From positions 1-64,000 of the forward strand of contig QKED01000087.1 of assembly GCA_003252455.1 (NCBI GenBank): a stretch of DNA of 64,000 bases. The letters are read 5' to 3'. The notes beneath the pieces are model-generated. The model worked only from the letters and a program-made list of their open reading frames with translations. It made no database searches and was not told the origin of the DNA. This stretch comes from Gammaproteobacteria bacterium (lineage in GTDB: Bacteria; Pseudomonadota; Gammaproteobacteria; Thiohalomonadales; Thiohalomonadaceae). The number at the start of each line of letters is the position of its first letter. The stretch's first letter is position 1. Below, in pieces: positions 52,526 to 55,114 of the stretch. The translations under genes were made by a program, and so were the position numbers.

Positions 52526-54334
52526 ATGTCATTCGACACCCTCGGCCTGAGCGCCGACATCCTGCGTGCGGTCCACGAGGCTGGTTACACCCAGCCGACC
52601 CCGATCCAGCGCCAGGCCATCCCCGTGGTGCTGCGCGGACAGGACATCATGGCCGGTGCCCAGACCGGTACCGGCAAGACCGCGGGCTTCACCCTGCCCC
52701 TGCTCCAGTTGCTCAGTCAGCGCACCATGGCCAAGGGCACACGCCCGGTACGTGCGCTGATCCTCACCCCCACCCGCGAACTGGCGGCCCAGGTAGGCGA
52801 AAACGTCGAGACCTACGGCAAATACCTGCCGCTCAGGTCGGCGGTGATCTTCGGTGGGGTCAAGATCAACCCGCAGATCGACAAGCTGCGCGCTGGGGTC
52901 GACATCCTCATCGCCACCCCCGGACGCCTGCTCGACCACGCCCAGCAGAAGACCGTGGACCTCTCACACGTGGAGTTCCTGGTACTCGACGAGGCGGACC
53001 GCATGCTCGACATGGGCTTCATCCACGACATTCGCCGCGTCCTGCGTCTACTCCCCAACGGGCGCCAGAACCTGCTCTTCTCCGCCACTTTCTCCGACGA
53101 GATCAAGCAGCTGGCCGCCGGTATCCTCGAAGAGCCCGCGCTCATCGAGGTGGCACGTCGCAACACCACCGCCGACACCGTGGCCCAGGTGGTGCACCCG
53201 GTGGACCGCGAACGCAAACGTGAACTGCTCTCCTTCCTCATCGGCTCGCGCAACTGGCGCCAGGTACTGGTCTTTACCCGCACCAAACACGGTGCCAACC
53301 GCCTGGCCCAGCAGCTGGAGCGCGATGGCATCACCGCCGCCGCGATCCACGGCAACAAGAGTCAGGGGGCACGCACCCGCGCCCTGGCCGACTTCAAGTC
53401 CGGCTCCATCCGCGTGCTGGTGGCCACCGACATCGCCGCACGCGGCCTCGACATCGACCAACTGCCCCACGTGGTCAACTTCGAGCTACCCAACGTGCCC
53501 GAGGACTATGTGCACCGCATCGGCCGCACCGGTCGTGCCGGTAACGAAGGCGAGGCGGTCTCCCTGGTCTGTATCGACGAACACAAGCTGCTGCGCGACA
53601 TCGAGCGGCTGATCAAGCGCCCCATCACCAGCGTCACCATCGAGGGCTACGAGCCCGACCCGACCATCAAGGCCGAGCCCATCGAGAATGGTCGCCGTAG
53701 CGGTCGCGGTGGCAACGACGGTGAGCGCCGCACGCAGGGTCAGGGTCAAGGGCGGCGTGACGCACCCCGCGGCCAGGGCCAGTCACGCCGCGAAGAGGGG
53801 CGTCAAGAGGGCGAGCGTGGCGCTAGTGGCGAGGCACGACGTGCCCCACGTAGCGAGGCACCAAGCCGAAGCCAAGGTGCAGCGCAGGAGCGCCGTGACC
53901 CCCAGGGCACGCGCGGTAGCGAGGGTCAAGCGCGCCAGGGTGGGCGCGGCGGCGAGGGACAGGCACGCCAGAGTCGTGGTGGCGAGGGGCAGGCACGCCA
54001 GGGTGGGCGTGGCGAAGGGGCACGTCAGGGGGCACGCCGCGATGGCCAGGGGCGCCAGGGCGAGCGCGTCGACGACGCCATCGGCAACCGTGCCGCATCC
54101 ACCCAGGCCCCACGTGCGGTCGAGGTGGATGGCAATCGCGTCGACTACAAACCACGCCGCCAGGAGAACGATGGCAACCGTCGCAACACGCAACAAACCC
54201 GGCGCTCCGACGCCGACGGCAACCGCATCGGCCTGCCGAGTGGGCGTCAGGCGCGGGGCAGTGGCAACGAGGTGGATGGCAACCGCGCCGAACGCCCGCC
54301 GCGTCAGCCGCGTGAGGTGAACGGCAACCGCTGA
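52526..54334 (+). CDS. rhlE: DEAD-box RNA helicase RhlE-like with repetitive basic tail
   Basis: 602 residues. All helicase motifs are present: Q-motif (P-T-P-I-Q), [20 protein letters not shown] and H-R-I-G-R-T-G-R. The core ends near 380. The tail has two parts: an arginine/glycine/glutamine-rich region (about 395-520) with G-Q-A-R-Q repeats, and a last part (about 530-602) with five D-G-N-R or N-G-N-R repeats at 10-20 residue intervals. RhlE acts in ribosome assembly and RNA turnover; the tail would bind RNA. The D-G-N-R array is unusual. A candidate regulatory RNA lies just downstream on the other strand. Confidence 0.92.
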
Positions 54335-54343
54335 GCCGCAGGC

Positions 54344-54381
54344 AAAAAAAAACAGGGCCATGCACATCGTGCATGGCCCTG
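54344..54381 (-). terminator. Strong intrinsic terminator of the CsrB/RsmZ-like RNA
   Basis: A perfect 12-bp stem (54353-54364 with 54370-54381), 5-base loop, followed on the minus strand by nine T's (54352-54344). The T-run is on the minus-strand side, so it ends minus-strand transcription, not rhlE. Confidence 0.85.
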
Positions 54382-54540
54382 GCGGCTGGATGTTCAGTCG
54401 ACGATAGCGCCTGGCTCTCCTAGTGGGCTCGGCTCCTGCCTCGCTCCCCCGACTTGGGACTCCCGCCCCGTCGCTTCTACGCTCCCTGTAGCCTCCATGC
54501 GACCACACATCATCCTGATGGCGCTATTCTGACTATGGCG
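54344..54540 (-). ncRNA. Candidate CsrB/RsmZ-like CsrA(RsmA)-binding small RNA
   Basis: The 356-base gap between rhlE and tusE has no gene. Its minus strand carries GGA at the complements of 54418, 54434, 54445, 54461, 54483, 54494 and 54513, seven in about 98 bases. Several sit in hairpin loops: CATC-AGGAT-GATG (54520-54508), CTAC-AGGGAGC-GTAG (54491-54477), GGC-AGGA-GCC (54440-54431) and GGG-GCGGGAGT-CCC (54469-54456). A long-range GTCGC/GCGAC stem groups two of them. A strong terminator follows. This is the layout of CsrB/RsmZ RNAs that sequester CsrA. The 5' end is not fixed; no clear promoter was found. Confidence 0.7.
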
Positions 54541-54598
54541 AGGTGCGACAACCATCCGCCACTCACCCTTCACCTATTAGTCCGATTCCGCGTAATAC

Positions 54599-54616
54599 TG
54601 TAGTCTCTAGATGACA
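54599..54616. promoter_or_regulatory. 18-bp dyad resembling a GacA/UvrY upstream site
   Basis: TGTAGTCTCTAGATGACA is an imperfect 18-bp palindrome with TGT/ACA ends. The GacA/UvrY site upstream of rsm/csr RNA genes is TGTAAG-N6-CTTACA, the same length with the same ends. It lies about 80 bases before the GGA-rich RNA candidate. Confidence 0.4.
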
Positions 54617-54631
54617 GGCCCCCACAACGGA

Positions 54632-54656
54632 CGAGGGCGCCGCTGGGGCGCCCTCG
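54632..54656 (-). terminator. Terminator hairpin of tusE
   Basis: A perfect 10-bp stem with a 5-base loop, 35 bases after the tusE stop. Only a weak T content follows, but the position suits a 3' end that keeps tusE separate from the downstream RNA. Confidence 0.5.
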
Positions 54657-54690
54657 CTCGGATGAGGCTAACGTCACTTGTTGGTAGCAT

Positions 54691-54993
54691 TCAGACGCAG
54701 CCAGTCGGCTTCGGCAATCCACCGTATTTGGCGATCTTCTTCATCGGCCCCCCACTGAAGAGCTCGTTGAGCAGGGTCGCCTTACGGTCCATGCCATGCG
54801 CCTTGGCGAAGATGCGGATCGGCGGGACGGTACCATCGACCTGATACATGTCGCGGGCGCTCATGATGAACTTCACGTGCTCATCGGTGAGGGTGAAGCC
54901 ATCACTCTGCGCCAGCTCACGCATCACCTCTTCACTCCAGAGGGTGGGGTCACGCAGGAAACCGTCGCCATCACGTTCAAGTGCCATACCCAT
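54691..54993 (-). CDS. tusE: TusE/DsrC-family sulfur carrier protein
   Basis: 100 residues. The C-terminal G-L-P-K-P-T-G-C-V is the conserved DsrC/TusE tail with the penultimate sulfur-carrying cysteine. The second cysteine that DsrC has about ten residues earlier is absent (K-K-I-A-K-Y instead), so this is the TusE or single-cysteine type, working in tRNA thiolation or as a persulfide carrier rather than with dissimilatory sulfite reductase. AAGGAGG 6 bases before the ATG at 54993 selects this start over two ATGs nearby. Confidence 0.9.
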   Translation of the reverse strand: MGMALERDGDGFLRDPTLWSEEVMRELAQSDGFTLTDEHVKFIMSARDMYQVDGTVPPIRIFAKAHGMDRKATLLNELFSGGPMKKIAKYGGLPKPTGCV

Positions 54994-55114
54994 GGTCATC
55001 CTCCTTATTCGCAATTAACCAAGCGGATTAGTCGGAATTATAGGGGCGACCTGGATAAATACAACTCTATTTTCTGATTATTTCTATCAGGATTTATGAC
55101 GCTGGCCACAGGCC

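Follow-up and report, generated by a model that had tools for sequence, protein, structure and literature searches.

A candidate CsrA-sequestering RNA between tusE and rhlE in a gammaproteobacterial genome

Background

The enterobacterial RNAs CsrB and CsrC (RF00018) carry many GGA sites that titrate the protein CsrA (PMC7652899). The SELEX consensus for CsrA is RUACARGGAUGU, and a CsrA dimer bridges two sites that are 10–63 nt apart (PMC7652899). Genes of the csrB/csrC type are activated by BarA-UvrY systems, which are characteristic of the Gammaproteobacteria (PMC4682653). An 18-bp UvrY repeat is located about 180 bp upstream of CsrB, and the corresponding repeat of E. coli csrC is degenerate (PMC4682653).

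We examined the intergenic gap between tusE and rhlE in a 64-kb window (the whole stretch of DNA analyzed) of a gammaproteobacterial genome. The initial annotation had read the minus strand of this gap as a CsrB/RsmZ-like RNA. Its GGA loops and its terminator are borne out by our analysis, but its GacA/UvrY site is not. The locus (Table 1) is probably best explained as a CsrA-sequestering small RNA (sRNA) of about 185 nt.

Table 1. Features of the tusE-rhlE intergenic gap and its neighbors (window positions)
Feature	Position	Strand	Basis or remark
tusE/DsrC-family gene, upstream neighbor	54691..55014	minus	PF04358
Intergenic gap, 356 bases	54335-54690		between tusE stop (54691, minus) and rhlE stop (54334, plus)
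10-bp hairpin 3' of tusE, without strong T run	54632..54656	minus	sequence; tusE boundary uncertain
18-bp TGT-N12-ACA dyad (TGTCATCTAGAGACTACA)	54599..54616	minus	proposed GacA/UvrY site, not supported
Possible -10 element CATAGT	54532..54537	minus	by eye, weak
Proposed sRNA gene (CsrA sponge), about 185 nt	54344..54528	minus	fold, GGA statistics, terminator
Closing helix, 5' arm (AUAGCGCC)	54520..54527	minus	MFE, centroid, MEA
GGA 1, AUC-AGGAU-GAU loop	54513..54515	minus	hairpin-loop probability 0.68
GGA 2, loop or internal loop	54494..54496	minus	hairpin-loop probability 0.72
GGA 3, mostly unpaired	54483..54485	minus	unpaired 0.74, hairpin-loop 0.28
GGA 4, hairpin loop, arms include GGGGC and GUCCC	54461..54463	minus	hairpin-loop probability 0.84
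GGA 5, mostly paired	54445..54447	minus	unpaired 0.34
GGA 6, GGC-AGGA-GCC hairpin	54434..54436	minus	hairpin-loop probability 0.94
GGA 7, hairpin with weak 2-bp stem	54418..54420	minus	hairpin-loop probability 0.64
Closing helix, 3' arm (GGCGCUAU)	54404..54411	minus	MFE, centroid, MEA
Intrinsic terminator, 13-bp hairpin (54381-54353) then T9	54344..54381	minus	
rhlE-type DEAD-box helicase, convergent neighbor	52526..54334	plus	PF00270 and PF00271

GGA motifs and predicted structure

The minus strand of the gap contains ten GGA motifs (at 54589, 54583, 54557, 54515, 54496, 54485, 54463, 54447, 54436 and 54420). The last seven are found within 98 bases, from 54515 to 54418, and our recount agrees with the seven in about 98 bases initially reported. 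At least seven GGA per 98 bases occur at 35 of the 127,806 window-strand positions, and the locus has the highest GGA count among the intergenic regions of the window. Across this and related genomes, at least seven GGA per 100 bases were found in 6 of 388 strand-intergenics, a non-random set, as many of its loci had been retrieved for lying near UvrY-like genes or boxes. These six consist of three box-headed Csr sRNAs, two copies of a dispersed repeat in genome G007, and the locus described here.

The GGA count alone is weak evidence, because dinucleotide shuffling of the stretch also yields seven or more GGA in 244 of 1000 cases, and the argument rests instead on the placement of the motifs in loops. 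GGA is common on GC-rich coding strands, where similar densities are reached, and in GC-rich genomes loop display is a more useful test than GGA count. The spacings of the motifs (11 to 22 nt) fall inside the range of 10–63 nt that a CsrA dimer bridges (PMC7652899). The ANGGA form is present in only two of the seven motifs, compared with five or six in the Csr RNAs of the sister genus g8.

The predicted structure consists of an 8-bp closing helix around a multiloop of short hairpins, and this arrangement is found in the MFE, centroid and MEA folds of 54528-54383. On average 3.4 GGA motifs are displayed in hairpin loops in a Boltzmann sample, compared with 0.9 for shuffled sequences. Of 1000 dinucleotide shuffles, 7 attain this level of display; among the 244 with at least seven GGA, 6 do. 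Among about 3200 stretch-strands in the 64-kb window the locus ranks first for loop display, and the two best-scoring stretches are both located here. The earlier claim of at least four GGA in short hairpin loops holds: for five motifs the hairpin-loop probability is 0.64 or higher, by a lenient measure that counts a motif when at least one of its bases is in a hairpin loop. The RNA thus has multiple GGA motifs that are mostly in hairpin loops, a feature of CsrB/RsmZ-type CsrA-sequestering sRNAs. The AGGAU loop of GGA 1 is similar to ARGGAU, the core of the SELEX consensus (PMC7652899), and in an alternative fold GGA 3 forms the loop of CUAC-AGGGAGC-GUAG. The fold energy of the 180-nt RNA corresponds to z = -2.36, a value to which the terminator contributes.

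Transcript boundaries

The terminator at 54381 is the only one found between 54300 and 54800, and it is present on the minus strand only. The initial annotation had described a 12-bp hairpin followed by nine T's; the T run is as stated, but the hairpin measures 13 bp. The 10-bp hairpin at 54656-54632 received no terminator score in the scan of the same 54300-54800 interval. A consensus scan of the gap recognized no sigma-70 promoter. The position of the closing helix suggests a 5' end that would give a length of about 185 nt, and the helix together with the terminator would make a self-contained RNA. The CATAGT seen by eye at 54537-54532 is a weak candidate for the -10 element of such a start.

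Csr proteins and UvrY boxes

The gene csrA, on which the initial annotation had made its reading depend, is present in the genome (G000:C75, E = 4.4e-26; N-terminus MLILTRRVGETL). The UvrY protein shares 56% identity with its E. coli counterpart, and uvrY is located immediately before uvrC. A BarA-type hybrid sensor kinase carries sCache_4, the sensor domain of BarA/GacS. Both CsrA/RsmA and the BarA/GacS-UvrY/GacA pair are therefore encoded, and with csrA, uvrY-uvrC and the BarA-type kinase in place the genome has a Csr system, for which a sponge is to be expected. In the region upstream of uvrY (L177, 1220-1509), six GGA lie clustered on the opposite strand from uvrY.

The 18-bp dyad upstream of the RNA had been proposed as a GacA/UvrY site. 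It does not match TGTAAGN6CTTACA within three mismatches (more than three of the twelve bases are off), and the TGT-N12-ACA pattern of its ends is found in the window at chance frequency (6 observed, 7.0 expected from shuffles). The proposal is not supported, and the dyad is no evidence for UvrY control. An upstream TGTAAGN6CTTACA box, which is usual but not universal among such sRNAs, is thus missing here. The lack of a good box does not by itself exclude UvrY control, as the repeat of E. coli csrC is degenerate (PMC4682653).

Elsewhere in the genome six UvrY boxes were identified with at most one mismatch, and none with the reversed control pattern. All six are beside protein genes or in repeats, and no GGA-rich structured RNA headed by any of them was found. 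The looser pattern TGTNNGN6CNNACA gave 36 sites in the genome, and no GGA-rich structured RNA was seen in the flanks read, which cover about two thirds of them. UvrY-like boxes at position 1513 of L121 (G000:C78:43712) and position 1489 of L119 (G000:C47:101488) are adjacent to protein-coding sequence, and the C78 box has the same sequence as the box preceding the Csr sRNA of g8 in G017 and G018. Box matches at position 1541 of L118 and position 629 of L123 are inside a repeat containing CAAGACCTGACC / GGTCAGGTCTTG. Because the RNA has no UvrY box and the six boxes of the genome are not at GGA-rich RNAs, it is conceivable that the CsrA sponge of this genome has left BarA-UvrY control, with CsrA titration wired to another signal, but we consider this improbable.

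Homologues and Csr RNAs of sister genera

The Rfam covariance scan suggested in the initial annotation (CsrB, RsmX/Y/Z, TwoAYGGAY) returned nothing for the locus. There was no Rfam match over the window, nor at the locus with E up to 10, and RF00166 (PrrB_RsmZ), RF00018 (CsrB) and RF01731 (TwoAYGGAY) gave no covariance-model match to the locus at the same threshold. However, Rfam at E up to 0.01 also misses the box-headed Csr sRNAs of the sister genera g8 and g11, which are clear examples, so its silence at the locus is not evidence against an sRNA. Rfam models thus fail for Csr sRNAs across this family, including well-conserved ones headed by a box. RF00166 gave nothing over its cut-off in the family, and its weak matches are uninformative as they also occur in unrelated control genomes.

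We found no homologue of the locus besides itself in 20 genomes of the family (BLAST and covariance model) or 369 genomes of the class (covariance model), among which there was no second genome of its genus. BLAST of the gap against relatives gave no matches other than the tusE end and snippets that were terminator-like or short and weak. Two weak family matches of the covariance model built from the locus were rejected as they fall in coding sequence. When synteny was followed through tusE and rhlE, none of the family loci read shared the gap; the comparison covers these loci, and the 21 named tusE loci, which belong to distant genomes, are outside it. In the relatives whose sequence following tusE was read, tusE is followed by a short hairpin or by a different gene, and a comparable tail is absent.

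A search of the family for TGTAAGN6CTTACA with at most one mismatch identified boxes heading clear Csr sRNAs in genera g8 and g11. The g8 RNA, near position 1500 in L127 (minus), L128 (plus), L129 (minus) and L130 (plus), is well conserved and has 9–10 GGA in about 163 nt, a near-perfect UvrY box and a terminator. The g11 RNA (L133-L134, plus strand, from about position 1500) is headed by a UvrY box and has 18 GGA over its roughly 260 nt. By our own count the box in the g8 and g11 genes is some 46–47 nt before a -10-like element. The two RNAs are hardly alike, and the Csr sRNAs of this family therefore diverge beyond sequence recognition between genera. A covariance model of the g8 RNA, searched across the family, had no match in the genome studied here; its weak matches in G015 and G006 look like terminators of other genes and were rejected.

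Copies of the dispersed repeat of G007 are located at 1168-1491 of L068, 1-167 of L063 and about 1420-1600 of L136. Its hairpins AAGTCC-AGGAT-GGACTT and GGCACA-GGGA-TGTGCC display GGA, and the 36-bit score of RF00166 comes from the copy in L136.

Alternative explanations and proposed function

The main rival to a CsrA-sequestering RNA is that the stretch belongs to the tusE transcript as its 3' untranslated tail, in which case the hairpin after tusE would be leaky, the strong terminator at 54381-54344 would end the same transcript, and the GGA motifs would be incidental or belong to a 3'UTR-derived RNA. It ranks first because the 54656-54632 hairpin lacks a strong run of T's and is unscored, leaving the terminator at 54381 as the only one scored, and because no sigma-70 promoter was recognized in the gap. 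However, more than 300 nt of tail with such GGA-loop display would not be expected by chance, the closing helix starts near 54527 and not at tusE, and the relatives read have a short hairpin or another gene after tusE; we consider this reading unlikely. The locus could also encode a structured sRNA unrelated to CsrA, acting for example by antisense base-pairing, with the GGA motifs representing G+A-rich loops in a GC-rich genome. The majority of sRNA genes are not CsrA sponges, and the low frequency of ANGGA among the motifs (two of seven) agrees with this possibility. The loop display is nevertheless extreme even among shuffles with at least seven GGA (6 of 244), and the genome encodes the Csr proteins, which makes an RNA of this kind somewhat less likely still than a tusE tail.

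As the initial annotation had maintained, there is no coding explanation for the 356-base gap, which is non-coding by ORF and Pfam evidence. A 39-codon ORF without internal stops does begin at an ATG at 54513 within the stretch. It was rejected on codon usage, scoring -0.61 bits/codon where same-length in-frame stretches of window genes score 0.66 +/- 0.20 and none is as low; its GC3 is 0.67 compared with 0.88 in window genes, and no properly spaced Shine-Dalgarno sequence was found for it. Longer minus-strand ORFs are antisense shadows of rhlE without a Pfam match and were likewise rejected. A small protein gene is accordingly the least credible of these explanations. A chance G-rich spacer ahead of a terminator would account for the absence of homologues in the 20 family and 369 class genomes, but is very hard to reconcile with the rank of the loop display, the shuffle tests and the strong minus-strand terminator.

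A CsrB/RsmZ-like sRNA fits the locus well: the GGA-loop RNA has a terminator of its own, and the genome has csrA, uvrY-uvrC and a BarA-type kinase. The GGA-loop RNAs of 163 to 260 nt in the sister genera also favor this reading, as does the failure to find another GGA-rich RNA at the UvrY boxes tested in this genome. Pointing the other way are the negative homologue searches in the family and class genomes, the absence of a recognized promoter, UvrY box or Rfam match, and the low share of ANGGA motifs. Such an RNA would be transcribed on the minus strand from a putative start at about 54525 to 54344, and is predicted to fold into a branched structure in which the 8-bp closing helix encloses four to five short GGA hairpins. 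CsrA dimers may bind the GGA loops in pairs, and the sRNA, when made, would titrate CsrA off its mRNAs. The initial annotation had also tied the RNA to the c-di-GMP and surface genes of the window. We found no support for this link, which is speculation: a CsrA sponge works in trans and genome-wide, so where the locus lies says nothing about its neighbors. If our reading is correct, the locus supplies the sponge for a Csr system missed by the standard RNA library.

Comparison with known Csr RNAs

The locus resembles PrrB/RsmZ of Pseudomonas (RF00166) in length class (the model has 133 positions), in its several short GGA-loop hairpins, in its 3' intrinsic terminator and in belonging to a genome with csrA/rsmA and gacA/uvrY. 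It differs in that the covariance model does not match and in the absence of a canonical GacA box, and the genes next to PrrB/RsmZ in Pseudomonas are also different from those of the locus. With CsrB and CsrC (RF00018) the locus would share the mode of action, in which many GGA sites titrate CsrA (PMC7652899); its core, however, has seven motifs and is not matched by the model. The Csr sRNAs of g8 and g11 have near-perfect UvrY boxes, 9–10 or 18 GGA, and no recognizable homology to the locus. Like it, however, they are GGA-loop RNAs with a terminator and come from the same bacterial family. The RNA of this locus would be an addition to a known functional class, outside every Rfam sequence family.
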